Part shown: in pieces, positions 8,576 through 59,338 of the stretch
Layout of the letters: the number at the start of each line of letters is the position of its first letter
Position numbering within the stretch: position 1 is the first letter of the stretch
NCBI GenBank assembly: GCA_015488755.1
Contig: WFNB01000069.1
Location: 1 to 64,000 of the forward strand
Length of the DNA stretch: 64,000 nucleotides
Direction: 5' to 3'
DNA from: Gammaproteobacteria bacterium
GTDB taxonomy: Bacteria > Pseudomonadota > Gammaproteobacteria > GRL18
Program-made: the position numbers and the translations under genes
The notes under the pieces: generated by a model
What the model was told of the DNA's origin: nothing
The model's input: the letters and a program-made list of their open reading frames with translations, nothing else
The model's database searches: none

Positions 8576-8585
8576 GAGAGAAGTT

Positions 8586-10682: not shown

Positions 10683-11803
10683 GTGCTTATCACGAAAGAA
10701 AATATAAGGCCAAGCAACGCCAAAAAATCGCTGAAGATCGGGTACGTCAAACAACTAAGGCATATTATAAGCATTATCAATTGATTATGACTGATATTCA
10801 AAGTCAGGATCTTGTTGACTATGTCGCCAGTGACTATGCCGCACTGAACAAACAATTAACACACATGAACACGTTGTTACACAGCGATCCATTTGCTGCT
10901 CGTGAGATCAGTCTAACGATTGGGCAATCCATTCATGCCTTACCTCATACTGCGCGACACTTACGCAACACCATGCAAGCCAATGAACGCCACGCAGCTA
11001 TTGAGTTAGAGCAGCAGAAAATAGTTCAGGAAAAACAAAAAAAGAGCAAAATGGAAACCCTATGGCAACAAGAACTAGCAAGCTGGGAAGATAAATTAAG
11101 CCTTAACCTGGTGTTAAAAGAATTATCACAATTACACGCAAGTCTCATAGTAAATACAATATCTACAACTGAAAATAAAATAAAACAACAGCTCGACACA
11201 TTAAAAACTATCGCACAACAAAAAGCCCTTGATTATCGAGCACAATTAAATAATCAAAGTCTTAATAAAGCCAATTTAGAGCGCATTGAACAATTAAAGT
11301 CCGACATTACAGCCGCTACCCTGTCAACAGATAAGGTTAAAAGTTTAAGTGAACAATTAGAATCCATTAATAAGTCGGCCAAAACCCAATCTGAAATTGA
11401 GCAAATTATATCACAAACTGAAAAAGCAGCGGATCAAGCCATGGAAGATGAAAGTATTCGTCGCTCAGTAGTCAAGGCCGTTTATACCTCATTAAATAAG
11501 GCAGGGTTTTCAGTAAACAAACCCGTACACATTCAGGAAAAAGATAAAGATGAGGTGATCATTAGTGCATCAAGACCTGCTGGAAATCAAGTTAAATTTG
11601 AAATTGAACTGGATGGTACATTACGCTATAAATTTGACCACTACAAAGGTCAAAGCTGTCAAAAAGACATCAAAGAACTGCTGCCTAAACTCTCTAAAAT
11701 TTATGGAGTTGATCTCAGTGATACCCGAGTATTGTGGCACAATCCGGATGATGAAGATGCGCAACTAAAACCCATCCCTAAACAAACATCACAGAACGCA
11801 TAG
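10679..11803 (+). CDS. Coiled-coil protein with a small DUF2997-like C-terminal module (cassette gene 3)
   Basis: The 374-residue protein is rich in Gln, Glu and Lys. About residues 95-265 look like one long coiled coil, with no signal peptide and no membrane segment. The last 100 residues are different: KFEIELDGTLRYKFDHYKG is followed by QSC and a helix ending in IYGVDL. The pattern of a short strand, DG turn, second strand and GxSC resembles the small DUF2997 domain often encoded beside AAA+ ATPases. That comparison is from memory and is tentative. The gene starts inside the stop of the PIN gene and ends 8 bp before the AAA+ gene. It probably bridges or regulates the ATPase and nuclease partners. 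Confidence 0.6.
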   Translation: MSAYHERKYKAKQRQKIAEDRVRQTTKAYYKHYQLIMTDIQSQDLVDYVASDYAALNKQLTHMNTLLHSDPFAAREISLTIGQSIHALPHTARHLRNTMQANERHAAIELEQQKIVQEKQKKSKMETLWQQELASWEDKLSLNLVLKELSQLHASLIVNTISTTENKIKQQLDTLKTIAQQKALDYRAQLNNQSLNKANLERIEQLKSDITAATLSTDKVKSLSEQLESINKSAKTQSEIEQIISQTEKAADQAMEDESIRRSVVKAVYTSLNKAGFSVNKPVHIQEKDKDEVIISASRPAGNQVKFEIELDGTLRYKFDHYKGQSCQKDIKELLPKLSKIYGVDLSDTRVLWHNPDDEDAQLKPIPKQTSQNA

Positions 11804-11811
11804 GAATACTA

Positions 11812-13677
11812 ATGGAACACAAATTATTAAATGACTGGCTTGAAGATTTTTTACGTCAAAGCAAATTACGTAGAGGCATTATCCTCAGTGGTAATATCAT
11901 TGATTTGAATTTTTCATTAAACCGGCAATTACAAAATCTCAATGACATATTAACAGAGAGTCTCAAGCAACAAGGTTTTCAACACGTTGTATTTTACTCC
12001 CGTGTGGGTGGTCTCTCTGGCATATCAAGCCATGATTGGCAACAACTGCAATCTAACTTTGCTTCTGTCAGTGAAACAATCCATGGTGATGAGTATGATA
12101 TGGGTGACGATGATGATAATGCTATCCAACAGGATAATGTAAGCGAACCAAAAAATGAGCTTACACCAGCTGATTTTTTTGCCGTCACACAACACATCAT
12201 GCTCAACGATCTTGCCCCGCGTGTTGCTTTTGTTATTGACTGGTCAAACTATCTATTCGGTCAGATCAATGCCTTGTCTGAAAGTGAACGAGGCTGGTTA
12301 TTACAAATTGCACAAAGCTTAAGAAATGCACCCACAGCAATGACAGCCGAACAAATACAGCAACCCCAAAGTTTAATGATTTTTATGAGTCAAGGAGCCA
12401 CCCATTTGCCACCGTCAATGTATCTGGGCAATCCACAATTTGCAGAGGTCAATATTCCACTGCCCAATAGAAATTGTCGTCAACATTTAATTCATACTCA
12501 TGAAACAGTTTTTAAAGTAAGAGAAAATTTATCCATACATTCTCGTGGCCTTGAAGATTTAACTGATTTAACCGATGCCTTAACCTTACGTGACATTAAT
12601 AATCTGGCCAAATTATCACGCCAGCAAACGGATCGTCTATCCATTGAAGCTCTGGTATCTTTGTATCGTTTTGGAAAAAAAGCATCCCCTTGGGAACAAT
12701 TAAATCGAGAAAAGCTCAAAACGACTGTCGCAACAATCGGTCAACGTGTTAAAGGGCAAGATCAGGCCTTACAAGCAGTCAACAAAGTCTTAATCCGAGC
12801 TTACACCGGCCTATCAGGTTTACAACACTCATCTCGTTCACAAGCACCCAAAGGGGCATTGTTTTTTGTCGGCCCCACAGGGGTTGGTAAAACAGAATTA
12901 GCTAAATCTCTCGCCAGTTTTTTGTTTGGTGATGAGGATGCCTGTTTGCGCTTTGATATGTCTGAGTTTAATCACGAACACGCCGATCAACGTTTAGTTG
13001 GTGCGCCCCCAGGCTATGTTGGTTTTGAAGAAGGCGGACAACTCACCAATGCGGTAAAACGCCGCCCGTTCTCACTCTTATTATTTGATGAAATCGAAAA
13101 AGCACACCCTCGTATTTTAGATAAATTTTTACAAATTTTAGAAGACGGTCGCCTCACAGATGGCAAGGGTGAAACCATTATGTTTTCAGATACGTTTATT
13201 GTTTTCACCTCCAATATCGGTGCCAGCACCATCCAACCCAATGAGAATCATAAGAAGATAGCTGAGGAATTTCAAAATGCAGTACACCAACATTTTGTTC
13301 ATGAACTCAAGCGGCCAGAAATTTTAGGCCGTATTGGTGAAGCGAATATTATCCCATTTAACTTTATAAATGATAAAAGAGTACTGATCACTATTGCTAA
13401 AGCCAAACTGGAACCCTTAAAAAATCGCTTAAAAGAAAAATGGCAGATTAACGATCTTCAGTTTGAAGATGAAGAAAAAGCCTTAACGACTATTGTTAAG
13501 CAGGTTAATCAACAAAATGGTGGGCGTGGTGTATTAAATGCGTTGGTAACTTGTTTATTTGATCCCCTAGCACAATATTTATTTGATGACATCAGTAATT
13601 CAAGTGAGCTAAAAGATCAAACACTGCTAATCATCCAGGCTGAAGATTCAGCCAATTTTGACTTTGAGCTCAAATAA
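11812..13677 (+). CDS. ClpA/ClpB-like AAA+ ATPase with a degenerate first ATPase domain (cassette gene 4)
   Basis: The 621-residue protein ends in a Hsp100-type AAA+ module: Walker A GPTGVGKTE (354-362), the pore-loop region GAPPGYVGFEEGGQL, Walker B LLLFDEIEKAH with D426-E427, sensor 1 TSNIG and RPEILGRI as the arginine-finger region. Residues 1-300 look like a worn AAA+ fold: RGIILSGNI stands where a P-loop should be, with no GKT/S, while AFVIDWSNYL could be a remnant Walker B strand. There is no Clp N-domain, no M-domain and no ClpP-binding loop that I can see. It would act as a ring-shaped unfoldase or remodelling motor rather than a housekeeping chaperone. SD AGGAA precedes ATG 11812. 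The stop shares its last A with the next ATG (TAATG). Confidence 0.85.
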   Translation: MEHKLLNDWLEDFLRQSKLRRGIILSGNIIDLNFSLNRQLQNLNDILTESLKQQGFQHVVFYSRVGGLSGISSHDWQQLQSNFASVSETIHGDEYDMGDDDDNAIQQDNVSEPKNELTPADFFAVTQHIMLNDLAPRVAFVIDWSNYLFGQINALSESERGWLLQIAQSLRNAPTAMTAEQIQQPQSLMIFMSQGATHLPPSMYLGNPQFAEVNIPLPNRNCRQHLIHTHETVFKVRENLSIHSRGLEDLTDLTDALTLRDINNLAKLSRQQTDRLSIEALVSLYRFGKKASPWEQLNREKLKTTVATIGQRVKGQDQALQAVNKVLIRAYTGLSGLQHSSRSQAPKGALFFVGPTGVGKTELAKSLASFLFGDEDACLRFDMSEFNHEHADQRLVGAPPGYVGFEEGGQLTNAVKRRPFSLLLFDEIEKAHPRILDKFLQILEDGRLTDGKGETIMFSDTFIVFTSNIGASTIQPNENHKKIAEEFQNAVHQHFVHELKRPEILGRIGEANIIPFNFINDKRVLITIAKAKLEPLKNRLKEKWQINDLQFEDEEKALTTIVKQVNQQNGGRGVLNALVTCLFDPLAQYLFDDISNSSELKDQTLLIIQAEDSANFDFELK

Positions 13678-14255
13678 TGACGTATCTTAATATTGCCTCT
13701 ATTATCAACAATACCTATGCAGAAGGACCCGGCTTACGTACCGCTATCTGGGTTCAAGGTTGTCTGAAACGATGTGTTGGTTGTTGCAACCCTGAGTTTT
13801 TATCCATTTCAAAAAAAATAATTTTTGACCTTGAATCACTCTGTGAATTAATACAGAAAAATCAAAAAAAATACCTCATCAGTGGCATTACATTATTAGG
13901 GGGTGAACCTTTTTTACAAGCTCAGGGACTGGCTGAAGTCGCAGCCTATAGTCAATCACTGGGTTTATCTGTTATGACTTTTAGCGGCTACTCAATAGAA
14001 GAACTGTGCGAATCAAATTTTCATGGTGCAGAAAAACTATTACGTCATAGTGATTTAGTCATTGATGGTGAATATGTGGCTGATCAACCAGAAGTTACAC
14101 GAAATTGGGTTGGTTCAAAGAATCAAAGATTTAATTATTTGAGTAATTTTTATGATACAGAAATTGAAACCACACCATTAGAAGTTACCAATGAATGGCG
14201 GATCAACTCAGATGGGATCCTATTAGCCAATGGTTTGCCCGTAAAAATAAAATAA
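13677..14255 (+). CDS. NrdG-like radical SAM activating protein (cassette gene 5)
   Basis: The 192-residue protein has the CX3CX2C cluster motif GCLKRCVGC (C29, C33, C36), which binds a 4Fe-4S cluster and S-adenosylmethionine. ITLLGGEPFLQA is the SAM-binding GGEP motif, and the GPGLR stretch near the start is typical of NrdG/PflA-type activases. Length and order match NrdG, the activator of anaerobic ribonucleotide reductase, but no nrdD lies nearby. It is the last gene of the cassette and coupled to the AAA+ gene. It may install a glycyl radical or modify a partner or nucleotide. The last 45 residues carry GSKNQRF, also seen in NrdG relatives. The family call is firm; the substrate is unknown. 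Confidence 0.85.
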   Translation: MTYLNIASIINNTYAEGPGLRTAIWVQGCLKRCVGCCNPEFLSISKKIIFDLESLCELIQKNQKKYLISGITLLGGEPFLQAQGLAEVAAYSQSLGLSVMTFSGYSIEELCESNFHGAEKLLRHSDLVIDGEYVADQPEVTRNWVGSKNQRFNYLSNFYDTEIETTPLEVTNEWRINSDGILLANGLPVKIK

Positions 14256-14504: not shown

Positions 14505-16036
14505 GTCAGAAACATTACCCTGCTTATAAAGGGATTAAGACCCTTTTTATCTAACCGTATTGCCAATAGCATTAAGTCAGAAACATTACCCTGCTTATAA
14601 AGGGATTAAGACTTAGTGCGCTTGAAAGTTTACGCATGTTATTTTTGTCAGAAACATTACCCTGCTTATAAAGGGATTAAGACAGTAGTTGTTAAAGCTA
14701 ACAGCTGCGTACGTAAAGTCAGAAACATTACCCTGCTTATAAAGGGATTAAGACGAAGTTACAGATGATAAGGTGGTGAATGTTTCACGTCAGAAACATT
14801 ACCCTGCTTATAAAGGGATTAAGACGGCCTAATATGGTTAACCACCCAGCATTTATGGAGTCAGAAACATTACCCTGCTTATAAAGGGATTAAGACTAGT
14901 TATACCAGCGGTAAGCCCAGTTATATATCCGTCAGAAACATTACCCTGCTTATAAAGGGATTAAGACCTCTGCAGATTTGTAAAGCAGATCATATGATCA
15001 TTGTCAGAAACATTACCCTGCTTATAAAGGGATTAAGACGCTTAAACCACGTTTTGTGGAACTTATAAACTTCGTCAGAAACATTACCCTGCTTATAAAG
15101 GGATTAAGACCTATGATTACTGATGTAGTGAGTGATGTAATAGGCGTCAGAAACATTACCCTGCTTATAAAGGGATTAAGACCCAAGTCAGTATGCCCTT
15201 CAATCAGTGCAATAAAGTCAGAAACATTACCCTGCTTATAAAGGGATTAAGACGGCATCCTTTCTGCTGTGTGGTACTTCCTGCTTAGTCAGAAACATTA
15301 CCCTGCTTATAAAGGGATTAAGACTACGTTTAGATACCTCAGCAATTAAATCTGTTTTGTCAGAAACATTACCCTGCTTATAAAGGGATTAAGACTAAAT
15401 ACTCATCATGTAACAGGAGCAGTCCTTCGGTCAGAAACATTACCCTGCTTATAAAGGGATTAAGACAGATTGTATTTGACGAAGGAATCCCTTTTTATAG
15501 GTCAGAAACATTACCCTGCTTATAAAGGGATTAAGACCTGGTATACGGAAACAAATGCAGTGGGTTTCTCTGTCAGAAACATTACCCTGCTTATAAAGGG
15601 ATTAAGACGACATATATATGTAGCTGTTTCCTTAGAATTAAAGTCAGAAACATTACCCTGCTTATAAAGGGATTAAGACGTACATACGCAATGCCCTGCT
15701 CTTCTAACATTTGGTCAGAAACATTACCCTGCTTATAAAGGGATTAAGACACCGCAAGGGCGTTCCGTGGAACTATACGGTTAAGTCAGAAACATTACCC
15801 TGCTTATAAAGGGATTAAGACTAAAAACGTCTCTACCAAATCACTATGCCTGTAAAGTCAGAAACATTACCCTGCTTATAAAGGGATTAAGACTAGATAC
15901 GTTCATGGTGATCGGTAAACTGGCTCGGTCAGAAACATTACCCTGCTTATAAAGGGATTAAGACTCGGTGTCGAATCTAGCAGCTGAATTTAAAGCTATG
16001 TCAGAAACATTGCCCTGCTTATAAAGGGATTAAGAC
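14505..16036 (+). CRISPR. CRISPR array: 22 repeats of 37 nt, 21 spacers of 34-35 nt
   Basis: The repeat begins GTCAGAAACATTACCCTG and ends AAAGGGATTAAGAC. Repeats start at 14505, 14576, 14647, 14718, 14789, 14860, 14931, 15003, 15074, 15146, 15217, 15288, 15359, 15430, 15501, 15572, 15643, 15714, 15785, 15857, 15928 and 16000. The first 21 are identical. The last carries one A-to-G change at 16012, the usual mark of the leader-distal end, so the array reads left to right. CCCT and AGGG can form a short stem. The final ATTAAGAC would be the 8-nt 5' handle of Cas6-cut crRNA, as in many type III systems. All spacers are distinct, and 17 of the 21 are 34 nt. The array converges on the cas operon, which encodes Cas6. 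Confidence 0.97.
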
Positions 16037-16150: not shown

Positions 16151-16405
16151 ATGAGAGTCATAAATTTTTCAGATGCTAGAAATAAGCTAAAAACTGTTTT
16201 AGATCAAGTGGTTAATGATACTGGTTACACTATTATTTCTCGTAGAGATGCAGAGGATGCTGGTGTTATGTCATTAGATCAGTTTAACGGGTTAATGGAA
16301 ACAGTGCATCTACTAAAAAGCCCAGCTAATGCAACACATTTAGCCAAATCAATTGAGCAATATCGTTCTGGTGAGGTAGTCCATCATAAGTTAAGCAATA
16401 GTTGA
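16151..16405 (+). CDS. yefM: YefM/Phd-family antitoxin
   Basis: The 84-residue protein matches YefM throughout. It opens MRVINFSDARNKLKTVLDQV, has TIISRRDAEDAGVMSLDQFN in the middle (the dimer core and DNA-binding part) and an acidic, flexible toxin-binding tail (LAKSIEQYRSGE). YefM binds and inhibits the YoeB mRNA interferase and represses the operon. Length is normal and the frame is intact. The toxin gene directly downstream is broken, so the antitoxin stands without a working partner here. It follows the CRISPR array by 114 bp. Confidence 0.9.
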   Translation: MRVINFSDARNKLKTVLDQVVNDTGYTIISRRDAEDAGVMSLDQFNGLMETVHLLKSPANATHLAKSIEQYRSGEVVHHKLSNS

Positions 16406-16718: not shown

Positions 16719-17945
16719 CTATTTTTCTACAGGCAAGTTATGAGCTTTAATTTCATTAATTAAATAACTCAGCTTTTCCTGTAATATATTCTCATTAAGT
16801 AATGCTTTTTGGACATCACCTTTATTACCCCGACTACCATGTGCAATATTATTGCGTAAATTTTTTAATAATTTATAATCTTTTGATTCCTGTGATTGTT
16901 GCTGATATATTTTTTGTTCATACCCTTTTCGTGCTTCTTCCCGACTGTCAAACTTGCTAACATCCGCCCCCGTTTGTTGACAAAGGCGGGTTAGGACTGC
17001 TTCATAAGCATATAATGTCGCACGAAGGTAATCCCTCTGCTCCAGCGAACGTTGTGCTAATTTAATTTGTTTTTCAAATTGTTTGTTTTCAGCCACCCAA
17101 TTCAAGCGTTCTTTTATAATAGGGAGAAGCAATTGAGTTTCTGGTGAGAGTGTGGCTTTTCCTTCTAAAGAAGGGAGCACTTTACGTAATTTTCCCGTTG
17201 CTTCACCGACATTAAGAACATTCTCATAATAGGCCGCTTCTCTCAGGTTGGTACAAATTGTTTGATCCAATCCTGATGATCCCAGCATTGGAATAAATGA
17301 GCCATAATTACCGTCTTGGTTAAATTTAGAAAGTGCCTGTATTCCCTCTGAAATACGAAGTAAGCCAGTCAGATTAATAACCGATGCACTACCCGTCTCC
17401 GTATCAAAACTGCCATACCAAATACCTTCTATTGAGGCATGACGGATCTGTTGAAGGTAAAGGGCAGCCAGAAGAGACAACATCGGTAGGTGGCGAAATC
17501 CATGAGTAATGTCCAGATGAACGGTTTCATCATCCTTTACTTCATTGGCCATAATTTGTAGTAATTCGATTTGTTCTATTTCATTTTTACAGTAAGGGAT
17601 GATTTTAAGTTCAATTTGGTAATCAAGCTTGGCGCTAAGTAAATGTTGAATTTTATTCAGATAGGCCTGCGTAACCGACTGTTGTTCGACTAAGTCTGCC
17701 AGCTCAAGACGTTCCTGTTCATAAGCACCACCAAAATCAATATCCAGTTCAAATAAATGATCCCACATACTACCTGAGGTACCAAGAATAACCACACGTT
17801 TGCTTTTGAGTCTTTGTTGTAATGACCAACCAAAAAAAGCAACCGATTCTGTTTTAAAACCATCATCAAATTCGTAAACGGTCGTACGATATCCTGAATC
17901 TGTATTGGGTACTCTGCCAAGAAGAGTAATTAATAAGTCTGACAT
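16719..17945 (-). CDS. csx1: CARF-HEPN ancillary RNase of the Csx1/TM1812 (DxTHG) family
   Basis: The 408-residue protein has a CARF domain with ILGTSGSMWDHL (53-64) and the diagnostic DITHGFRH (145-152), the loop that binds cyclic oligoadenylate in DxTHG-type Csx1 proteins. A C-terminal HEPN domain carries RNNIAH (R364 to H369), the R-X4-H ribonuclease site. Both key elements are intact. After Cas10 senses target RNA, cyclic oligoadenylate would turn on RNA cleavage. It is the last gene of the leftward cas operon, 41 bp after cas6. Three CARF proteins are present in the window, so this is one of several outputs of the same signal. Confidence 0.92.
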   Translation of the reverse strand: MSDLLITLLGRVPNTDSGYRTTVYEFDDGFKTESVAFFGWSLQQRLKSKRVVILGTSGSMWDHLFELDIDFGGAYEQERLELADLVEQQSVTQAYLNKIQHLLSAKLDYQIELKIIPYCKNEIEQIELLQIMANEVKDDETVHLDITHGFRHLPMLSLLAALYLQQIRHASIEGIWYGSFDTETGSASVINLTGLLRISEGIQALSKFNQDGNYGSFIPMLGSSGLDQTICTNLREAAYYENVLNVGEATGKLRKVLPSLEGKATLSPETQLLLPIIKERLNWVAENKQFEKQIKLAQRSLEQRDYLRATLYAYEAVLTRLCQQTGADVSKFDSREEARKGYEQKIYQQQSQESKDYKLLKNLRNNIAHGSRGNKGDVQKALLNENILQEKLSYLINEIKAHNLPVEK

Positions 17946-17986
17946 TTATTTTTTTCCTATTTAACAAATAAAAGGATGGACACTAA

Positions 17987-18871
17987 TTAATGTATCAATT
18001 GGTATTTTCCAAGTCCAAAAGTGGTTTTACCACCCAGATGCAATTGCTCACCCAAAATAAGCAGTGGTAGTGCCTGAGATATTTCTCCATAGTAACTCAC
18101 TTGCCCTTTGAGCCCACCAAAAGGTAAATTGCTTTGCTCTTTTTTTGAAAAACGTTGCCAGTCTTCAAAGTAGCAATGACTGGTGGTTTCACAATGACTG
18201 ATACGAGGTCTTTGCGCATAAAGATCATTAAGTAAATCTTGATTATCAGTGACCCAAAAACGACTCAATTGTGTTAATCGCCTCAGTATGGCATTTATCC
18301 AGAACTCAAGAGGGGGTGCCTGTTTTTTAACAACCTGACCATTGTATTTAAGTCGCATAGGGGTGCTGATAGCCAGTGCTAATTCTATGCGGTTTAACTC
18401 AGGCATTTCATCCAGTTTATTAACCAGATAGTGTTCCAAAGTTAAAACGTGTGCGCCCGTTTTTAATCCATTAGCGGTTATAGTGCTAATACTGATGACT
18501 TTAAAGGGGGTGCGCATGGAACCCAGCCCCATTTTTTCCCCCAATTTAAGTGCAATAACAATAGGGTCGATGAGTTTAGTGGCATCACCAAACAAGCTGA
18601 TTTCAAAGCTGAATAATTCGCCTTGATGCCAGTGGGTTTTGTGATCATCTGATGGACAAATCAAATAGGGTTTAGGTTGCTGAGCTGAATGTTCGCCATA
18701 GCAGATAAAAAAGGCCTGCTCATCGGCTTGTTTGAGTGCATGACCAAACCAACCATGTAACATCGAGCCTTTGAAGGCGGGAAATACTGTATCCTGCTCA
18801 AGTTGAATGAAGACTTTCAACTTGAGCAGTTTAAAGTTAGAGGCTAAATGATAGAGGGCTAAATTATTCAT
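17987..18871 (-). CDS. cas6: Cas6 pre-crRNA processing endoribonuclease
   Basis: The 294-residue RAMP protein has the Cas6 layout. FPAFKGSMLHGWFGHAL at the N-terminus marks the first ferredoxin-like fold. The C-terminal part has LPFGGLKGQVSYYG and ends with the glycine-rich GKTTFGLGKYQL loop that contacts RNA. Cas6 cuts the repeat in the array transcript to leave an 8-nt 5' handle. The catalytic His cannot be placed confidently by eye, though several His residues are near the N-terminus. Its start overlaps the end of the upstream Cas7-insertion gene by 8 bp, so they are coupled. It is the only processing enzyme in the window. Confidence 0.85.
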   Translation of the reverse strand: MNNLALYHLASNFKLLKLKVFIQLEQDTVFPAFKGSMLHGWFGHALKQADEQAFFICYGEHSAQQPKPYLICPSDDHKTHWHQGELFSFEISLFGDATKLIDPIVIALKLGEKMGLGSMRTPFKVISISTITANGLKTGAHVLTLEHYLVNKLDEMPELNRIELALAISTPMRLKYNGQVVKKQAPPLEFWINAILRRLTQLSRFWVTDNQDLLNDLYAQRPRISHCETTSHCYFEDWQRFSKKEQSNLPFGGLKGQVSYYGEISQALPLLILGEQLHLGGKTTFGLGKYQLIH

Positions 18872-21101
18872 CTAATTTCTTTCTCAGGTATTTAATGGCT
18901 TTATCTGTCTCTTTTTTAGACACGGTTATTTGACTGTATATATCCAATAAAGTGTTGGCTTCCTGTTGGGTTAGTGTTAGTTCTTTTAACTCTTTGAAAA
19001 TAAATCGCAAGTCTTTTGCCTTATTTTTCAGATCCGTTTTAGTTAATGAGTCTTGAGCCTTAACAATGAGGGACAAAAGTGATTTATTTTTTTCATAGGG
19101 TGATAAATTAGACTCTTGAGCTTTTATCAAGGATTTAGACTGTCTTTCTATTTGTTTTTTATCCCATCTGGAACCCTCGTTCAACAAATGACTTAAACGA
19201 CCTTTTCCAAAAGCAGGACTGACACAAAACTCTTCATAATTTGAATCCGTGCGTTCAAGATTATTAAATGGTTCCAAAATAGCACCTGAGTTTTTGGCAT
19301 TTTGATAGTCTTTGTTATCAATCGACATGTAACGGGTATCCACATCATAATTTGCCTGCATATTTGCCAAAGCATGTAAATATTTTATCTGAGGGCTGTT
19401 ACTCCATTGACCATCAAAGGGATAAGCGTTTTCCATTTTTTCTGTAAATTTGTTCATAAACTCATTTTCATCGAATGACGCAGAGGATTCCTTATTACAT
19501 TTCAGTATCATCAAATTAGAGGTGAGCTGTACGGCACCGGCACCATAAGGTTTACCATGACCTAAGCTATGATAAGAGTCTCTATTACCTCCCAACTGTA
19601 TCACCCATAGTAAAGCGCCAAGCTCTTCTGCTTTTAAATTATGAAAAACAATTTTTCCTGAAAATTCACTATCCACCGGTGCAAGTTCCATCTTGCTGGA
19701 TACGTTGCTTTTATCAGACAAATCAGATTGAGTTAATTTGTCAAATTTAGGTTCTTTGTTGATGTATCGTTTACGACCCGCCGGAGCCGTTTTATCATCA
19801 TAATCATTAAATTTTTTATCTTTTGAAAGTTTAGGATTTTGTTCCAGATACGCCGGATAAAAAGTGGGTTTGGCACCATTTAAAACCAGTGAATTGGATT
19901 CATATAAACTATTTTTTGTACTGTCGCTAGTAGTAGCGTCAGTAAATGCCACTCGACTTTTTAAACTAAGTCCTTCATCTCTTAGAGTTCCAAAAATTAA
20001 TTCAGCCATATCAAAACAAGAGTCTGCCTGATTGGCTTTGTTTTGACCTTTGACTAAATCACCAATAGAATATTTATAACTCACTCTGGGCATTTTTGCC
20101 AAACCAAGAGAATCAAATTGATTACCTACCTTGCTCAGTAAAGCAAAAACTGGAATACCTAATTCATTATTTTGCTTTTCAATATAATAATCGATTACTT
20201 TTACCTTTTTTTCCCTTACTTTTATTTCGTTTTGATGTGCTGAGAAGAAGCTGTTAACTATTTTTGTGTGAACATTTTGTACTTCCTTTTCTTCATCATA
20301 GAAAATATAACTAAAGTTTGTTCTATCTTTAACCGTTCTTTTATCAGAGTCTGTTTTATCCTCTGCTTTAACAAAATTATTATTTTTATCTTTTATAGGT
20401 ACCAAAGGACGATAGCTTGAAAAAATAACATACCCTTCGTGTTTTTTCTTATGGCCAAAATTTATTGCTCTAAGCGTATCTAAATCATTTCCACTATCTA
20501 TTTTAAATTTTCTTTTTTCTTCATCAAAAGAAATCAACTGGTTTAAATCAAATTTTTTATAACTACTTATTGCATTATATCCATGTTGACTATTATTAAT
20601 ATTCAATTTTTTAAAATCATTAAATTCATCATGAAATAGTTTAGTATGTCTGCACTTTCTTAATGTCCACATAGACTTTTGAGCATCAAACTTTAGCCAA
20701 CATGCTTGTACCTCATTATCATTTAATATTGATTTATAATTTGAATTCGTAAAATCTCTATAAAAAAGTTGACTTTCATCAACGGCTGATAGTTTAGAAA
20801 AACTAACAATTTCCAACACACTACGCAACATGCCTTTCATACTTGAGCCTGGGATCACGGGATTGCCCTGTGGATCTTTTGCCCATTTGACCAGTGCTGG
20901 TTGCCCTATCCTTTGAACTTGCTCACCACCAACACACAAGGGGGTTACATTGGTCAATATATAATCAATCACACCACTATAGCCATCTTCAAAAGGGTGA
21001 TCATGACTGACTAAATGTGCCCACTCAGGCATATAAACCCACTTCGACAAAGGAACAAAGTGATAAGGAGCATGGACTTCCTGTTGACTGCTATAGTTCA
21101 T
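18864..21101 (-). CDS. TIGR03986-type RAMP protein, Cas7-insertion subunit of a type III-D complex
   Basis: The 745-residue protein opens with a RAMP/Cas7 fold. DYILTNVTPLCVGG is the first strand, and GNPVIPGSSMKGMLRSVLE is the classic RAMP IPGSSLKG motif. SLGHGKPYGAGAVQL near 515 is the glycine-rich loop that closes the fold. Between them is a long charged insertion (about 130-420). This layout matches the TIGR03986 family, which is the Cas7-with-insertion subunit of type III-D complexes. It would coat crRNA and may cut target RNA. The Lys-rich C-terminal 150 residues look helical. It overlaps cas6 and follows csx19 by 2 bp. The family call is good; the catalytic Asp was not located. Confidence 0.82.
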   Translation of the reverse strand: MNYSSQQEVHAPYHFVPLSKWVYMPEWAHLVSHDHPFEDGYSGVIDYILTNVTPLCVGGEQVQRIGQPALVKWAKDPQGNPVIPGSSMKGMLRSVLEIVSFSKLSAVDESQLFYRDFTNSNYKSILNDNEVQACWLKFDAQKSMWTLRKCRHTKLFHDEFNDFKKLNINNSQHGYNAISSYKKFDLNQLISFDEEKRKFKIDSGNDLDTLRAINFGHKKKHEGYVIFSSYRPLVPIKDKNNNFVKAEDKTDSDKRTVKDRTNFSYIFYDEEKEVQNVHTKIVNSFFSAHQNEIKVREKKVKVIDYYIEKQNNELGIPVFALLSKVGNQFDSLGLAKMPRVSYKYSIGDLVKGQNKANQADSCFDMAELIFGTLRDEGLSLKSRVAFTDATTSDSTKNSLYESNSLVLNGAKPTFYPAYLEQNPKLSKDKKFNDYDDKTAPAGRKRYINKEPKFDKLTQSDLSDKSNVSSKMELAPVDSEFSGKIVFHNLKAEELGALLWVIQLGGNRDSYHSLGHGKPYGAGAVQLTSNLMILKCNKESSASFDENEFMNKFTEKMENAYPFDGQWSNSPQIKYLHALANMQANYDVDTRYMSIDNKDYQNAKNSGAILEPFNNLERTDSNYEEFCVSPAFGKGRLSHLLNEGSRWDKKQIERQSKSLIKAQESNLSPYEKNKSLLSLIVKAQDSLTKTDLKNKAKDLRFIFKELKELTLTQQEANTLLDIYSQITVSKKETDKAIKYLRKKLDE

Positions 21102-21103
21102 GA

Positions 21104-21637
21104 TTATTCACCTCCTTTACTGGATTGTTCGATATCTTCAGCTTGTGTAAAGCCTATAAATTGCTGGGCTAAAGGTAACCATCGTCCTTTTTGTGTACCT
21201 TCTTCTGCCTGTTGCCACCAAAGGCGATAACGGCAGGCATTAGCATCAGTCTGGCTTTTTAACTCTGGGCGAAGATAGAGTATTTGTTCTGTATTGACTA
21301 TGGTGGATTGTTGGCTTTCTGTGGTAATAAAGCGGGTCAGGACATAGCAATCATCCTGAAGCAGTTTAACACTTAAACTGTGCTCGCCATTACTCCACTC
21401 ACCTTCCAGAATAAAATCCTGCTCAGGGGCAACGTTATTAATCTCCAGTCGATTACGAAACATGACCCAACCCGCATTAGCATTGAATTCACGGATTTGT
21501 GTGCAGACCTCTGACAAATTAATTTCCTGAGCAGTGATTTCCAGTGACACGGCATTTAATTGGGGTAAACGATTACCCACCAAACGAGGGTCTTGCGCAC
21601 TTTTTTGTTGTAGTTGTTGATAATTGGTGAAACTCAT
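21104..21637 (-). CDS. csx19: Csx19 (TIGR03984-type) subunit of the type III-D complex
   Basis: The 177-residue protein has no catalytic motif. It is recognised by place and features: a small acidic protein between two large RAMP genes of a III-D operon, with AGWVMFRNRLEI in its first half and CRYRLWWQQAEEGTQKGRWLP in the second, as in TIGR03984/Csx19 proteins. In described III-Dv complexes Csx19 is a structural accessory subunit near the crRNA 5' region. It overlaps the upstream double-Cas7 gene by 4 bp and is 2 bp from the next, so all three are coupled. The family call is mainly contextual. Confidence 0.72.
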   Translation of the reverse strand: MSFTNYQQLQQKSAQDPRLVGNRLPQLNAVSLEITAQEINLSEVCTQIREFNANAGWVMFRNRLEINNVAPEQDFILEGEWSNGEHSLSVKLLQDDCYVLTRFITTESQQSTIVNTEQILYLRPELKSQTDANACRYRLWWQQAEEGTQKGRWLPLAQQFIGFTQAEDIEQSSKGGE

Positions 21638-23046
21638 ACTGAGATCTCCTGCATTACGTCTTTTGTTTTAATCAATTCTGGCTTCAGTTGCCATTTTTTA
21701 TTGGCATCCGCCATCACCAGCGAGTTACCTCGCCCACTGCCCGCACCAATAGGTAACAGGCCAATTTTTAGGTCTTCGAGGGTATCCAATAGGGCTTGCT
21801 TTAACTCAGGACTGAGTACATGCTGTTTTTCTAGTGATAATTTAAGCATAAATTCAGGTTGATAGAGCAATTCTTCGGTATAAAGTGCTCCTTTACGCAC
21901 TCCGCCTGTGAAACGATCAATCGAATTATGAGTGCGTAACACGGTATTCGTATACTGAATTTGACAATCACTGACTCGCAGTTTTCCAGCAACACTGTTT
22001 TGGTGCTCATCACTGTCGGCATAGCCAAAAAGTTCTTTTAATTCAACAGGTCGTTCTTGCCATTGTTCATGACTGGCCTGTTCCATAGTTTCTGCCCAGT
22101 TGCCTTTATGTCGGCGCAAATGATAGGCAACACGATGTGCTAATATACCTTTTATACTGCTACCACAAAGAACCGCTTTTGGTTTGCCTAAGCTCGCACG
22201 GTTATTTTTCCAGTCAACTTTTGGCTCAGAATAGCTAATAATTCCAACACTGCCTTGTGTTTCTTGCCGACCCAGCCGTTCTGTGCCAAGACCACAGCGC
22301 CAATTATCCAGAGCTTTTATGGGTAATTGAGCAAAGAGATTATGGGTACATTGATTCAATACGTCTAACTGTCCTTTGGGTAATTGTTTGTTTTGCCTTA
22401 GAGTCTGCCAGCGCTTACCTGCTTGCGGGTTATTGTTTAGCTCAATCATTTCTGACTCACTGGCAATCACTTTAATTTGTCCTAAGCCATTACGGGTACT
22501 AGAACCAAAGGCAAATTCAGGCTGTAACCAAAGTTCGAGTAATTGTTGCCATTCTGTCTGGTTTAAGGTGCTCTTTTCTCGTGCGGTATTCCAATGCAGA
22601 TCCAGTGAAAATCGTAAACCGGCAGGTAATAACAATTGATCAAACTTACCTGTTTCTCGTGCCACTCCTCGATCATTGATGGCAACGCGCTCACGATGCA
22701 TAAGACGTGCCTGTAACAGCAAATTCAGCAAACTGTCTTTTTCCAACTCTGTTCTTGGCGTTAGGCTCATCACGGGTTGATTGCGACTATTATGCACAAC
22801 GGCATTGCTGATGGTTATGGAAGAGCTTTGTTCTGTAGTTCCAAACCATTTTTGATAGAAGTCGTCATCAAAGTGATTTTGAGTGATATGCCCCCAAACG
22901 CCGGCAATAGCTGACGCAGGTATATAGGGTAGATCATTGGCATCACGGGCGAGTTGTGTATCAAAACCGGCTTCACGATGGCCACTATTTATCGCCATAG
23001 GGCTTGTGGTTTCAATGACTAGTCGGGTGTAATTGATCTGGCTCAT
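21634..23046 (-). CDS. Double RAMP protein (Cas7-2x) of the type III-D complex
   Basis: The 470-residue protein contains two Cas7-type RAMP folds in tandem. The first shows SPMAINSGHREAGFDT, then LPYIPASAIAGVWGH and FGSSTRNGLGQIKV, the glycine-rich loop near 200. The second shows KAVLCGSSIKGILAHRVAYH near 290 and ends in IGLLPIGAGSGRGNSLV near 440. Each fold binds a stretch of crRNA, and Cas7 subunits of type III carry an Asp that cuts target RNA every six bases; D29 in the first fold is a candidate. It overlaps Csx10 by 4 bp upstream and Csx19 by 4 bp downstream. The duplication matches the Cas7-2x subunit of III-Dv systems. Confidence 0.82.
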   Translation of the reverse strand: MSQINYTRLVIETTSPMAINSGHREAGFDTQLARDANDLPYIPASAIAGVWGHITQNHFDDDFYQKWFGTTEQSSSITISNAVVHNSRNQPVMSLTPRTELEKDSLLNLLLQARLMHRERVAINDRGVARETGKFDQLLLPAGLRFSLDLHWNTAREKSTLNQTEWQQLLELWLQPEFAFGSSTRNGLGQIKVIASESEMIELNNNPQAGKRWQTLRQNKQLPKGQLDVLNQCTHNLFAQLPIKALDNWRCGLGTERLGRQETQGSVGIISYSEPKVDWKNNRASLGKPKAVLCGSSIKGILAHRVAYHLRRHKGNWAETMEQASHEQWQERPVELKELFGYADSDEHQNSVAGKLRVSDCQIQYTNTVLRTHNSIDRFTGGVRKGALYTEELLYQPEFMLKLSLEKQHVLSPELKQALLDTLEDLKIGLLPIGAGSGRGNSLVMADANKKWQLKPELIKTKDVMQEISV

Positions 23047-24668
23047 TGAGTTACCTCCTGCTTGTTATTCTCTTTGTCCTTAGCGGCATCAATTTTTAAT
23101 TCTTGTTTTATGGTTTTTAAGTCTTTAGCCGTTGATAGATCGTAACGACATAATTTATCCAGTAAGGAACGCATGGTGAGTAACTCTGTCGTGTTTAACG
23201 TTGAGCGGATAAAGTCAGCAAAGCTGGTGAGATTATTGCCTTCACTCCATTGGATACCCCACCCCAATTCATCATTTTTTGCTTTGCAGATGGCATTATC
23301 ACCATCAAAAACACCTTGTATCCAATTGGGTGAATTATTATTACGAACCCTATCGCTGATACGTTGCCATTGATGAGAAGATGGCCCTGCTTCATTGGAT
23401 GGGTAGATGTTGTTATAGCTACGAGCATTGGAGTAAGCATAAATAATTTTTTTCAGTAAAACGTTAACCTCTTGTGTTCGAGTCTCTAAATCTTCTTCAG
23501 CTTTAATTTTATCGTTTAACCAACGAGTCAGAGAGGAATCTGTATTTTTGCCTTTATAATTTTTTGGTCGCCCTTGGGGCTTGCCTTTGTCATTCTCTTT
23601 GATCTCTAAAGTGACAGCAGAAAATAAGGCTTTATCGGATAGTTCTGGTATAAATGCCCAATGAGGATTTACATCAATCCAGCCCAGACCTTGTTGACGA
23701 TTGCGACCCATTCCATTATTTCGTAAGTCTTTCAATACTTCAGCATCCGCTGCTGTGTGTAAGTCATAAACCAACACAGAGCCTTTAGTGATCAAGAGCT
23801 GTTCACTATCCAACCCCATGCGCTTTTGGTTAAAACGACTGATGCGTGAGCTACGGATAAAGCTGAGTTGTCGATTTAATGTACCTTGCAGTTTATTGTT
23901 GATGCTGGATAATTCGGGAGTAAAGGTGGCTAAGCCCATTTCATTAAGCATTTCACAATCACTTAAACACCAGAGGACTAAGGTTTTAGGATCGGTTTTA
24001 ATGGGGTCAGGGGGGGATGATGCTTTGATTATTTGTACTTTGACTCGTCCAAATTCACTATTACGTGAACGTCCAATGCGCATTGTACCTTGCAAGCTTT
24101 GTTTAAATTTATCAAACAAATTCTGATCAGAACTTTCTATCCAGCCAGAAAATTTTTGACCCGCATCAATGTGTGCATAAGAGAAGAGTTGCCCTTCTTT
24201 GGCTTTACCAATTTTGCTGTCAATGGCTGTTTTTGTTGCAACAGACTGGGTGACTTTAGCACTGTCTCTAGTCGAGTTAAAGTAGCCGTCTCGACACTGC
24301 TTAAACTGTTTGTTAGTGTTAGCCTCACTATCACGATTAAATGTATTACAAGCATGGTTGCTTATAATTTTAGAATTAAAATGATCGTTACTGATGGCAT
24401 TTTTACCTTTTTCATAATGCCAGCTTGCCGGAACAGGTAAGCAAAGTTGATTATTAATAACAGGATAGACTGGACTAAAACGAACATGACCACTATGAAA
24501 AGCATTCCAGCTTTCTTCTGGAGTCAGATGAGGATAATGTTCTGCTGCCAAAGCACCTAGAATAGCACTACCAGGAATATAATCTAATGAACCATGATTA
24601 TTAGCACTGGCATTATTGACACTCACAATAACGGGGTCAACTGTGGTTAATTGATAATAGACACGCAT
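23043..24668 (-). CDS. csx10: Csx10, Cas5-like RAMP with a helical, possibly Cas11-like tail
   Basis: The 541-residue protein has the Csx10 layout of type III-D. YYQLTTVDPVIVS is the first strand and LDYIPGSAILGALAAEHY the RAMP motif. RIGRSRNSEFGRVKV near 200 and MGRNRQQGLGWIDVN near 335 are glycine-rich loops. It takes the Cas5 place, capping the crRNA 5' handle. Residues 380-540 are charged and largely helical, with no RAMP motif; in III-Dv the Cas11 small subunit is fused to Cas5, so this tail may do that work. That is inference. It overlaps Cas7 by one base upstream. No separate csm2/cas11 gene is seen. Confidence 0.82.
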   Translation of the reverse strand: MRVYYQLTTVDPVIVSVNNASANNHGSLDYIPGSAILGALAAEHYPHLTPEESWNAFHSGHVRFSPVYPVINNQLCLPVPASWHYEKGKNAISNDHFNSKIISNHACNTFNRDSEANTNKQFKQCRDGYFNSTRDSAKVTQSVATKTAIDSKIGKAKEGQLFSYAHIDAGQKFSGWIESSDQNLFDKFKQSLQGTMRIGRSRNSEFGRVKVQIIKASSPPDPIKTDPKTLVLWCLSDCEMLNEMGLATFTPELSSINNKLQGTLNRQLSFIRSSRISRFNQKRMGLDSEQLLITKGSVLVYDLHTAADAEVLKDLRNNGMGRNRQQGLGWIDVNPHWAFIPELSDKALFSAVTLEIKENDKGKPQGRPKNYKGKNTDSSLTRWLNDKIKAEEDLETRTQEVNVLLKKIIYAYSNARSYNNIYPSNEAGPSSHQWQRISDRVRNNNSPNWIQGVFDGDNAICKAKNDELGWGIQWSEGNNLTSFADFIRSTLNTTELLTMRSLLDKLCRYDLSTAKDLKTIKQELKIDAAKDKENNKQEVTQ

Positions 24669-25288
24669 TAGTGTTTTCCTCCTTTTTTTGCATCTTTTTT
24701 AATAGATACATAAACCTTGCCCAGTCCCCTATGGCGTTTGGCACCTAATTCAGTGATTAAGGGTACAATTTGTTCCAAATAAGAAAAGAAGTTTTGTTCC
24801 AGTTTTGGGTTTTCTTTTAATACCGGATAATTTGAATTCAAATTCAGTTCAGCGGTTAATAACATGGGCACTGTCACTTCCATAGAACGTAAACTTGACT
24901 CACTGGCAACACCACTCTTATGATCAATGGCTGTAAATTGTAAAACTCGGTATAAGTATTTGCTGGTCGTTTTATTTTCTTTAAAAAAAGTTTGCTCATT
25001 TAAAGAAAGGCTGGCACTTGACAGTTGCAGTGCACCTTGTGATGTTAGCCCTTCTCTATTTTCATTACCAAAAATAATATTCAGCAAGTCTGTTTCATCA
25101 TCAAACCACTTGTTATCTATTGCTGTAGTAAAAGCATGACGTAATAAGCCTTTGATACTTTTACCTGGAATATAAGGTAAATTGTTGTTGTCTTTTAAAA
25201 CTAAAGCGTCCGCATAAGCACCTGATTCTTTGCCATTACCAATATGCCAGTCACTTTGGATGTCAAAATTTAATTGATAATGATTCAT
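24668..25288 (-). CDS. Single Cas7 (Csm3-like) RAMP protein
   Basis: The 206-residue protein is one Cas7/Csm3-type RAMP fold: FDIQSDWHIGNGKESGAYAD near the start, LPYIPGKSIKGLLRHAF as the RAMP motif (38-54), and GAKRHRGLGKVYVSI as the closing glycine-rich loop. Csm3 proteins form the backbone that holds crRNA and cleave target RNA through an Asp in the first loop; D26 is a candidate. The start overlaps the cas10 stop by 4 bp, and the stop shares a base with the csx10 start. In III-Dv this unit is fused to Cas5-Cas11. Here it is a free protein with intact start and stop. Confidence 0.85.
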   Translation of the reverse strand: MNHYQLNFDIQSDWHIGNGKESGAYADALVLKDNNNLPYIPGKSIKGLLRHAFTTAIDNKWFDDETDLLNIIFGNENREGLTSQGALQLSSASLSLNEQTFFKENKTTSKYLYRVLQFTAIDHKSGVASESSLRSMEVTVPMLLTAELNLNSNYPVLKENPKLEQNFFSYLEQIVPLITELGAKRHRGLGKVYVSIKKDAKKGGKH

Positions 25289-27024
25289 TGCATTGCTTCC
25301 TTATCTTTTTTTTCTGTAACCGGTTGAAAGTGATCAATAATTAATAAGTCGTTTATAATACTTTGCCAACCATCATTGACCTCTTTACCTGTATCTTGCC
25401 AATACCACTTATTATTATTGGTTTTATCACTGCTTATTTTGTCCAGTAAACCTTCAAGTTCATTTATCTTGTCATTATCCAAACACAAATCTAATGCCCG
25501 ATTATAGAGACGTTCTGCTTCTGGTAAATCACCCGTGGCAAGATGCGTGGCAATTTGCCGCCATTTAGGCATGGCAACTGGGGTGTTTTTTTCATTACAG
25601 AGTGTGACTATCTGTTTAATCACTGACAGTTGTTGATAGTCAATTTCATCTTCAACAAAATAAGCTGAATAACCTAGCGTAATGTGGTCATTATTACTCA
25701 AAAGGTAGTGTTGTGATTGTTTATAGATATCATCAAAATCTGCTGCAATGGTGTTTGATAAACGATAAAATGCCAAAGCTGCTGGCCCTACTTGCTGGTC
25801 ATTAGCATTGACACTTTTGGTTAATTTTTTGGCATGTGAGCACAAGTCTTCAACCAGATGATGACTATTCGTAAAGGGGTGACTGGCCTTAGCATAAAGA
25901 ATGCCTCCACTTGCAGTCAGGTATTTTTTTAAATTATCGTTTTGTATATGCTGTTCAAACAGTGGCTTTAAAGCTATTTCTGATGCTATTTTAAATTCTT
26001 TACAGAATATATTGCTGTATTCTAAGGCTAAGTCTGCACGGCAAAAAAGTGTGACATCATCCCCTCCTAAAACAATGGGGCGCATGGGAACATAGAGCGT
26101 CTGACTATCTTTGCTTTTATAACTAGCAACATCATATAACCATTGTGTTGCTTTTTTTGCTGCCTTGATGGTCGCTTTATTTAAAGCATCGGAAAATAAC
26201 CGAAAGCCTTTGCGGTAATCTTCTGGCTCTTTATCACCCAGTTCATTTTTTAAGGCTCTTAGTAAAATGCCTAGTCCATTACCATCAATATGAACCAAAG
26301 CAATATCTTTAGTGGCATCACTGTTTTCTTTTAATCCTTTGGCTGAAAAGGCAAAATCATTTTCCAGATTGATTGGGTAATAAATCTTTCCTTTTAACCC
26401 ATCAGGTGTAAACCGATCTTGTAAAGCAGCACTGGTCCGCATTTCTAATGCCTGGTAGGCCTGACGGTGGTGTTCAATGTCTAAGTCAAAAGCATCATTG
26501 TCAAACTCCTCCTTCATGGCGGCTTTTTTGGCCAATGACGAAGGGGGTACAGCTGCCATTCCTGAGCGTTGATAGCGAGCACTGATAGCACTGGCAACAG
26601 GAAATTTTACCATTGGGCTATTGCGATCAGCGGCCAAATTCTGATGTGATTTTTCCATACTTTTATTCAGGCTTTCTGCACAATTCAAAGCATCTGTAAA
26701 TTCCAGTGAAGGAAATAGTTGCTGTACCGTCAGAGTCCAAAGGCTTCGCAATTTTATTAATGGCGATTCATTTTGACTATAGGCATAAAAAGCCCCTCCC
26801 TTACAGCGTAAAAAATAGATAACGTCTTCACTTGTGGGTGTTGTTAAGTCCATCAAATCAGATTTCAATCCAGCTTGATCGATGACTTGAGACAGCAGGC
26901 TTTGTTCTTCTGAATCAATGAAACGATCTAATCGCTCACTGGCTGAAATGACATCTTTTAGCTTTCCACTGGAAAAAAGATAGTTTTGGATGGATTTTGC
27001 CTCAAAAAGGTAGGTGAAAATCAT
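25285..27024 (-). CDS. cas10: Cas10 subunit with intact GGDD cyclase site and no evident HD domain
   Basis: The 579-residue protein has two palm-like segments. LVHIDGNGLG (244-252) is the first metal-binding segment, and IVLGGDDVTLF (317-327) holds the GGDD motif (320-323) that makes cyclic oligoadenylate from ATP. No HD motif is seen in the first 240 residues, and the protein is short next to HD-containing Cas10 (about 750-850 aa). It should therefore signal but probably not cut DNA by itself. The helical C-terminal end resembles domain D4. It is followed by Cas7 with a 4-bp overlap. Three CARF proteins and a ring nuclease in the window fit an active cyclase. Confidence 0.9.
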   Translation of the reverse strand: MIFTYLFEAKSIQNYLFSSGKLKDVISASERLDRFIDSEEQSLLSQVIDQAGLKSDLMDLTTPTSEDVIYFLRCKGGAFYAYSQNESPLIKLRSLWTLTVQQLFPSLEFTDALNCAESLNKSMEKSHQNLAADRNSPMVKFPVASAISARYQRSGMAAVPPSSLAKKAAMKEEFDNDAFDLDIEHHRQAYQALEMRTSAALQDRFTPDGLKGKIYYPINLENDFAFSAKGLKENSDATKDIALVHIDGNGLGILLRALKNELGDKEPEDYRKGFRLFSDALNKATIKAAKKATQWLYDVASYKSKDSQTLYVPMRPIVLGGDDVTLFCRADLALEYSNIFCKEFKIASEIALKPLFEQHIQNDNLKKYLTASGGILYAKASHPFTNSHHLVEDLCSHAKKLTKSVNANDQQVGPAALAFYRLSNTIAADFDDIYKQSQHYLLSNNDHITLGYSAYFVEDEIDYQQLSVIKQIVTLCNEKNTPVAMPKWRQIATHLATGDLPEAERLYNRALDLCLDNDKINELEGLLDKISSDKTNNNKWYWQDTGKEVNDGWQSIINDLLIIDHFQPVTEKKDKEAMQ

Positions 27025-27073
27025 AAATACTCCAGTATTCTCGTTATTATTTTTTATATAAACAAATTTGGAT

Positions 27074-28207
27074 TTATATCCATTTTTTCAAAAATTCATC
27101 TAAACGCTTTAAATCAGTAAACTGACAAACTTTTATTTTTTCATTTTTAGCTCTGGCCAACGCCGCTTTAGGTAGTTTTCTATAGGTGACTAACATGCCT
27201 TTTCCTTGTAGACCACCGAGTGTTTCTTTTAAGGTATCCAGTTTATAAATGGCATCACTGCCGGAGTCTTCTTCCTTCCATGATTTGGTTTTACATTCAA
27301 TAACATGAAAGTGATTATTGGATAAGAAGGCAACATCAAGCTCATTTCGGGTGCCACCATTAACCGCTTTCACTGCTACACTTTTTTGTAAATCTCTGAT
27401 TTCATCTTCAGTATTGTTGGCTCTGATGTTTCTTAATACATCAAATACATATTCCTCTAACCAGCCACCATTGGCAAAAAATCGTTTTTCTTCACTATTA
27501 AAAGTGAGCTTACGAGTGTTTTCTGAAAAATAACAAAACCCTTTATCTTCAAATAACTGCCTTAATGCTAAAAAGGATGAATTTTGAGTGTGTTTATCCA
27601 CTTCAGGTGATTCCAGCTTGGGATGACCTTCGGCTTTATTGGCGAGAAAATTCATCTTTGCCAATGGTTTTTCAAATTTCTCAATATTTTTTATCAGCTC
27701 CTTGGCCAGCTCAATGTTTTCAGTCGCAACCTTATTGGTGTCACCACTGATAAACTGATAGCCATACACCTGTAGAAAATCAGTCAGTTTAAGCCGGTCT
27801 TCAAGTAAGTGTGCTTCACGTTCTGATGGATTCATCCATAAAACTTTATCGTCATCCGGGTGAACATAGAAAACAGGCAAATCACCAATGACTGAATAAG
27901 CACCGATACTCATAGGCTTGGTACCACCTGTTGCATTTAATGCCAGTCCATCTGCATACTCTGTATCTAATAGTTCCAGTACTCTTTCCTGAATGTGTTC
28001 AATATCCCAGGCATCATTAATAGGCCATTGAATAACCTTTATGCCTCTTGGTTTGATAAACTGCTCTAACCATTGTGCTTTTTGCTGCATATCAGGACTG
28101 ATTAACAAAATGACTGTCTCAGGTGCAAAAGTCTTATCAATTAAAGGCGTTATATTCGGAATGGGTTGCCCAGATACCAGACACAGGTGACTCTTTATTT
28201 TATTCAT
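27074..28207 (-). CDS. Card1/Can2-like CARF nuclease (DUF1887 type)
   Basis: The 377-residue protein joins a CARF domain to a PD-(D/E)XK nuclease. The CARF loop is NATGGTKPM (91-99), close to the loop in Card1/Can2. The nuclease site is ELDVAFLSNNHFHVIECKTK (289-308), giving D291, E304 and K306 in the expected D-X(n)-E-X-K spacing. Such enzymes are switched on by cA4 and cut single-stranded or supercoiled DNA and RNA. Length matches single-chain Card1. It is the second gene of the cas operon, just after the ring nuclease and 49 bp before cas10. Confidence 0.9.
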   Translation of the reverse strand: MNKIKSHLCLVSGQPIPNITPLIDKTFAPETVILLISPDMQQKAQWLEQFIKPRGIKVIQWPINDAWDIEHIQERVLELLDTEYADGLALNATGGTKPMSIGAYSVIGDLPVFYVHPDDDKVLWMNPSEREAHLLEDRLKLTDFLQVYGYQFISGDTNKVATENIELAKELIKNIEKFEKPLAKMNFLANKAEGHPKLESPEVDKHTQNSSFLALRQLFEDKGFCYFSENTRKLTFNSEEKRFFANGGWLEEYVFDVLRNIRANNTEDEIRDLQKSVAVKAVNGGTRNELDVAFLSNNHFHVIECKTKSWKEEDSGSDAIYKLDTLKETLGGLQGKGMLVTYRKLPKAALARAKNEKIKVCQFTDLKRLDEFLKKWI

Positions 28208-28222
28208 TGAATTGTTCCAATA

Positions 28223-28546
28223 TTATTTTAAGTATTTCAACAAGCCTAATTCATAAGGCAGTGCTGCAATTTGTGCTTTATCCGTCAGAACTAAATTTTC
28301 TGGAAGTCTGCTTTTTAAGCTCAAAACAAGGGCTTTATCACCTCTTTCCATTGTAATCTGTATACGGTTCATTTCAATCTTTGTGTCTAATAAGTAAGAA
28401 AGAAATTCAGCACTGACCTGATGGCCTACCGCTGATATAAACCCTTGTGTTAATATTTTTTGTGCCTGTAAAACACTCAAAGGCCCTTCGTAATGCCATT
28501 GACCATAGCGGGTTAATATGGGAGTATTTAAAATATAAGTTTTCAA
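28223..28546 (-). CDS. crn2: DUF1874 ring nuclease (Crn2 / AcrIII-1 type)
   Basis: The 107-residue protein matches the DUF1874 family from end to end. YILNTPILTRYGQWHYEGPL opens it, GFISAVGHQVSAEFLSYLL follows, and NRIQITMERGDKALVL and YELGLL complete the pattern. H42 in AVGHQ stands where AcrIII-1 has its catalytic histidine. These enzymes open cA4 rings; viruses use them as anti-CRISPRs, and hosts use Crn2 to reset signalling. As first gene of a cas operon it is more likely the host form. The start is TTG 28546 with ribosome binding site GAGGTG, since no in-frame ATG occurs before the conserved core. The TTG overlaps the stop of a 25-codon frame upstream (TTGA). Confidence 0.9.
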   Translation of the reverse strand: MKTYILNTPILTRYGQWHYEGPLSVLQAQKILTQGFISAVGHQVSAEFLSYLLDTKIEMNRIQITMERGDKALVLSLKSRLPENLVLTDKAQIAALPYELGLLKYLK

Positions 28547-59245: not shown

Positions 59246-59338
59246 CCTAAATAAATCAGTTGAATCGTAGCGAGAATGATCAGAGTGCTGGAGATACAAG
59301 GATTTGCAGGTTATTTTGACTTTATTCGTAGTCACCCT
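59246..59338. repeat. Palindromic repeat family A, left part (MITE-like)
   Basis: CCTAAATAAATCAGTTGAA (59246-59264) is the outer arm, the reverse complement of 310-328. Positions 59287-59338 are identical to 194-245 over 52 bp. The right half of the palindrome seen at 246-328 is absent; the sequence changes at 59339. So each of the two copies keeps a different half, and together they outline a palindromic unit. A frame of 84 codons crossing this repeat on the minus strand is not taken as a gene. Confidence 0.65.

Follow-up and report, generated by a model that had tools for sequence, protein, structure and literature searches.

Does a type III-D CRISPR operon in which Cas7 is encoded apart from Cas5, and in which Cas5 appears to carry a Cas11-like part, represent a state before the full Cas7-Cas5-Cas11 fusion of type III-Dv? 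The question is raised by an operon at positions 16719-28546 of the window, by which we mean the whole 64,000-nucleotide stretch that was analysed (WFNB01000069.1 positions 1-64,000; GCA_015488755.1, Gammaproteobacteria bacterium). The operon lies entirely on the minus strand and is read in the order csx16, card1, cas10, cas7, csx10, cas7-2x, csx19, cas7-insertion, cas6 and csx1.

The gene identities given here, the division of Csx10 into domains and the changes at individual residues described below were all established computationally. Csx16 (28223-28546, with a TTG start; PADLOC Csx16 2.5e-34; Pfam PF08960 1.6e-24) is a predicted cA4 ring nuclease of STIV_B116-like type, and it is followed by a Card1/Can2-type CARF-PDDEXK effector nuclease (27074-28207; Pfam Card1_endonuc 6e-32, CARF_Card1 5e-16). 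Cas10 (25285-27024, 579 aa; PADLOC Cas10 5e-178) contains at residues 320-323 (26056-26067) the GGDD cyclase motif, which is invariant in the alignment; a Pfam scan of the protein returned palm2 only and no HD nuclease domain. The effector core continues with a single, unfused Cas7 of 206 aa (24668-25288; PADLOC Cas7_IIId 1e-44), Csx10 (23043-24668, 541 aa; PADLOC Cas5_IIId 9e-61), the double Cas7 protein Cas7-2x (21634-23046, 470 aa; PADLOC Cas7_IIId 9e-81), Csx19 (21104-21637, 177 aa; PADLOC Csx19 1e-40) and the Cas7-insertion protein (18864-21101, 745 aa; TIGR03986 1.7e-97, 328 bits with the cut-off at 161). Cas6 (17987-18871; PADLOC Cas6 1.4e-62) and Csx1, a CARF-HEPN ribonuclease with the HEPN motif RNNIAH (16719-17945; TIGR02221 1.4e-50), complete the operon, which, with csx16 and card1 upstream of cas10 and these two genes at its other end, extends beyond the six genes first listed for it. 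From cas10 to cas7-insertion neighbouring genes overlap by 1-4 bases, so that the predicted gene order with overlapping ends is borne out, with the exception of a 2-base gap before cas7-insertion. Likewise, cas7 and csx10 occupy separate reading frames that share one base, as had been proposed, and the one-chain organization of III-Dv is therefore absent.

Together these genes very probably make up a complete type III-D1 effector operon of the ordinary kind. Csx10 is recognized both by its profile and by its fold (Z 32.8, see below), Cas10 carries GGDD, Csx19 and a TIGR03986 Cas7-insertion protein are present, Cas7 and Cas5 are separate genes in the same gene order, and the operon branches with unfused III-D loci. 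The family model TIGR02674 matched Csx10 at 6e-16 with a score of 58.5, which is below the NCBI curated cut-off of 177.3. Only one copy of Cas10 was found in the genome.

The Cas11-like part of Csx10 was analysed with a structural model built from an alignment of the protein with 64 relatives from genome contigs. In the full-length model (mean pLDDT 90.7) the Cas5 domain (residues 1-362) is followed by a linker (363-378), disordered over residues 363-375, and by a helical domain that begins at residue 379; residues 379-523 form helices and a small hairpin, and the tail as a whole (379-541) is encoded by 23043-23534. Structural alignment with VIA-align matched residues 1-522 of the model to the III-Dv Cas7-Cas5-Cas11 chain (8S9U_A, residues 246-781), with 455 aligned residues, Z 32.8 and 20% identity. 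Since at most 378 of these can precede the tail, at least 77 aligned residues lie within it. The next-best family reached Z 21.8 and covered the Cas5 part only. The rmsd against the III-Dv chain was about 9 Å, as would be expected if the two domains are displaced relative to each other, and the profile match to the same chain (1.6e-37) also extends into the tail region. When the tail was modelled alone (pLDDT 94.1), the only structural matches above Z 4 were type III-E Cas7-11 chains, in residues 257-375, the top five scoring Z 7.1-5.4; the Cas11 of III-E Cas7-11 sits between Cas7.1 and Cas7.2 (PMC11089037). A Z of about 7 is modest for a helical domain.

These observations bear on a different reading of Csx10, in which the helical tail has no relation to Cas11, whose role falls instead to a small subunit encoded elsewhere or to the C-terminus of Cas10 alone. 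Consistent with such a reading, Foldseek returned no significant match for the isolated tail, no match was found when the tail profile was compared by sequence with solved chains, and tail-against-tail comparison with hhalign was not significant (best probability 18.6%; shuffled controls 0.1%). The Cas11 identity of the tail consequently rests on position and structure. Moreover, the catalytic arginines on the Cas11 side of III-Dv (R678, R706, R769 and R773) had no equivalent in the window protein, in an alignment that is weak. Nevertheless, the full-length structural alignment continues through the tail, the top five structural hits of the tail all fall on the Cas11 of Cas7-11, and the tail is present in every one of the 65 aligned Csx10 proteins (length 116-187 aa), among which Q433, W434 and W470 are invariant. 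The list of open reading frames for the operon contains neither a separate cas11 gene nor any other unassigned gene. We therefore consider an unrelated extension improbable. Position, the full-length alignment and the specificity of the tail matches indicate that the Csx10 tail is likely Cas11-like, and on both points, the Cas11-like part of Cas5 and the comparison of the modelled tail with Cas11, the original prediction stands.

To place the operon among its relatives, 88 other loci were collected from a Cas10-based scan of GTDB genomes, plasmid records and one genome of the window's class. Cas10 was used as the query because an 8-member Csx10 alignment contained no stretch conserved enough for scans of the collection. 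Both cas7 and csx10 were visible in 86 comparable loci and were unfused in 83 of them, across Gammaproteobacteria, Bacteroidota, Spirochaetota and Cyanobacteria. The Cas7-Csx10 fusions seen were those of Synechocystis (791 aa), of locus L112 in the window's class (759 aa) and of a Prevotella locus (699 aa; L089:10563-12662). Sampling 398 genomes of the phylum added seven genomes, all of them lacking a fused frame, and another seven genomes of the Prevotella genus likewise showed none. Csx10 was found in none of 15 other sampled genomes of the window's genus, and Csx10 relatives were not found on viral contigs. An apparent natural split of csx10 in L045 and G255 was set aside: judging by their contig numbers (WFOJ01000171.1 and C171), both appear to be the same genome, and a sequencing error is possible. 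Because 83 of 86 loci share the unfused state and the literature already names III-D1, this state is both known and usual; III-Dv has been described as retaining the organization of a multi-gene III-D1 operon (PMC11026444).

Could the operon be a true intermediate towards III-Dv and III-E all the same, with Cas5 and Cas11 already fused and Cas7 about to join them? It shares the III-Dv gene order, its Cas5 carries the Cas11-like tail, and the III-D system of Sulfolobus has a separate cas11 (PMC9945777), which together allow an order that runs from separate Cas11 through Cas5-Cas11 to Cas7-Cas5-Cas11. The layout, however, is widespread and ancestral-looking rather than specific to the window's lineage. 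In a maximum-likelihood tree of Cas7-2x and Cas7-insertion, III-Dv, III-D2 and III-E formed one group (bootstrap 100) and all unfused loci another (100). When five Cas proteins were concatenated for a second tree, Synechocystis and L112 fell together beside unfused cyanobacterial plasmid loci, which, and not the window, are thus nearest to III-Dv; the window instead grouped with Photobacterium, Psychromonas, Vibrio and relatives. Because the trees were midpoint-rooted and the III-E branch is long, the direction of change is one that we infer. The window lies within gammaproteobacterial III-D1 and is therefore not a close pre-fusion relative, and we regard the intermediate as very unlikely. The proposal of a specific pre-III-Dv state is thus not supported: its author had named a branching far from III-Dv as a result that would count against it, and the genes do branch away from the III-Dv/III-D2/III-E group.

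In the concatenated tree the Prevotella fusion is nested in unfused Bacteroidales and therefore arose independently of III-Dv, so that Cas7 would have joined Cas5 at least twice, in the III-Dv line and in one Prevotella lineage. In most of bacterial III-D1, Cas5 appears to carry the Cas11-like domain. Both points make the order of fusions towards the single-chain effectors clearer. The class of a Desulfobacterales genome (L029) yielded loci of III-E as well as III-D2: one genome of that class encodes a type III-E Cas7-11 of 1447 aa (L138:8161-12504), and the III-D2 loci L139, L140 and L143 combine Cas10 with a Cas7-Cas5 fusion of 610-676 aa and a triple Cas7 that is about 1260 aa long.

The residues expected to cut target RNA differ from those of III-Dv at one site. 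In III-Dv, D26, D33 and D246 serve one each of three cutting sites (PMC11026444). The window retains the first two catalytic aspartates, as Asp27 of Cas7 (the equivalent of Synechocystis D26) and Asp29 in the first domain of Cas7-2x. In the second domain of Cas7-2x, the alignments place Gly268 (codon 22243-22245) where Synechocystis has D246 (site 1), so that the three-aspartate pattern of III-Dv is broken; the motif reads xDxxxYSE in relatives and VGIISYSE in the window. The site-1 aspartate is kept in 62 of the 79 loci scored overall and is missing from 10 of the 12 scorable loci in the window's supported 13-locus clade (9 of 11 besides the window). Its loss was noted in the window and at loci L003 and L010-L017.

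The Gly268 substitution could also be taken as a sign that the operon is decaying or inactive. That reading is highly improbable: all frames are open and closely spaced, GGDD, Asp27 and Asp29 are retained, the site-1 loss is common to most operons of a supported clade, and the adjacent CRISPR array (14505-16036, plus strand; 22 repeats of 37 nt and 21 spacers of 34-35 nt) has near-identical repeats. For an intact III-D1 operon, absence of the site-1 aspartate predicts loss of that cut, and hence two target-RNA cuts instead of three. Somewhat short of an even chance, in our estimate, is the broader proposal that a gammaproteobacterial III-D1 branch with Cas5-Cas11 has lost one of three sites, would cut twice at a spacing of 6 nt, and may retain target RNA, and so sustain cyclic oligoadenylate signalling, longer than III-Dv. 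How signalling responds to the number of cuts could be tested directly and cheaply on the lost aspartate. Both the site-1 loss in this clade and the separate Prevotella Cas7-Csx10 fusion look new.

How the operon might work can be drawn from the solved III-Dv complex and the biochemistry of the protein families. Cas6 would cut the array transcript, and Csx10 (through its Cas5 domain) together with Csx19 would hold the 5' tag next to Cas10. The guide would be lined by the single Cas7, both domains of Cas7-2x and the Cas7-insertion protein, with the Csx10 tail supplying the only Cas11 of the filament. Target RNA would be cut at Asp27 of Cas7 and Asp29 of Cas7-2x and probably not at Gly268. Bound target would prompt Cas10, using GGDD, to make cyclic oligoadenylate, which would activate Card1 and Csx1; Csx16 is a cA4-specific ring nuclease (PMC12409355), and its presence suggests that the signal is cA4. 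The signal would be cleared by Csx16 and perhaps also by a Csm6-family ring nuclease.

Another contig of the same genome (C47, locus L110, 1670-6409) carries cas1 and cas2 together with genes for a primase-polymerase-like protein and a further Csm6-family ring nuclease. It also has a second array; 30 of the 37 positions in the repeat of that array are the same as in the window's repeat, among them the 3' end, from which the crRNA tag derives. The operon thus probably obtains its adaptation functions in trans. The last repeat of the window's array carries one mismatch, so the leader is probably to its left. Comparison of the spacers with phage records gave no match. A CARF ring nuclease of the Csm6/NE0113 family (657-1898, minus strand; TIGR02584 2.7e-67) is a likely accessory. 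Beside the array, at 4730-14255 on the plus strand, five genes may form a defence or accessory module not described before. They encode an SF1 helicase of 1281 aa whose C-terminal part is MkoA-like, a protein with a PIN domain, a protein of 374 aa that falls into no known family, a ClpB-like AAA protein and a radical SAM protein resembling NrdG. A YefM-type antitoxin is encoded at 16151-16405, in the interval that separates the array from csx1; no adjacent frame of at least 80 aa that might encode its partner toxin was seen. A perfect 52-nt direct repeat occurs at 194-245 and 59287-59338, 59 kb apart.

Among known systems, the operon resembles other type III-D1 loci such as that of Photobacterium toruni plasmid pCECT9189-1 (NZ_AP024856), which has the same gene order, an unfused Cas7, a two-domain Csx10, Csx19, Cas7-insertion and Cas6 (identity 44% for Csx10, 54% for Cas10 and 42% for Cas7-insertion), and whose Cas7-2x also has Gly at the site-1 position; in that plasmid cas1, cas2 and csm6 are found some 8 kb upstream, whereas the window's cas1 and cas2 are on another contig. 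The III-Dv system of Synechocystis sp. PCC 6803 (PDB 8S9T-8S9X) has the same parts in the same order, and Csx10 corresponds to its Cas5-Cas11 part, with the Cas11 domain likewise at the end of the Cas5 part. In contrast to the window, it fuses Cas7, Cas5 and Cas11, has three target-cleaving aspartates and falls on another branch; by layout and match ranges, its Cas7-insertion protein also has an extra N-terminal segment of about 110 aa that the window protein lacks. The III-D complex of Saccharolobus solfataricus (SsoCsm, PDB 8BMW) similarly comprises Cas10, Cas5 and several different Cas7 proteins, but its Cas11 comes from a gene of its own and occurs five times in the complex, and there are five cas7 genes (PMC9945777), whereas the window's Cas11 would be the Csx10 tail. 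Finally, III-E Cas7-11 and III-D2 share with the window related Cas7-insertion and Cas11-like domains; III-E is a single chain without Cas10 and III-D2 has Cas7-Cas5 and triple-Cas7 fusions, whereas the window has Cas10 and keeps its Cas7 proteins, including Cas7-2x and Cas7-insertion, as separate genes.
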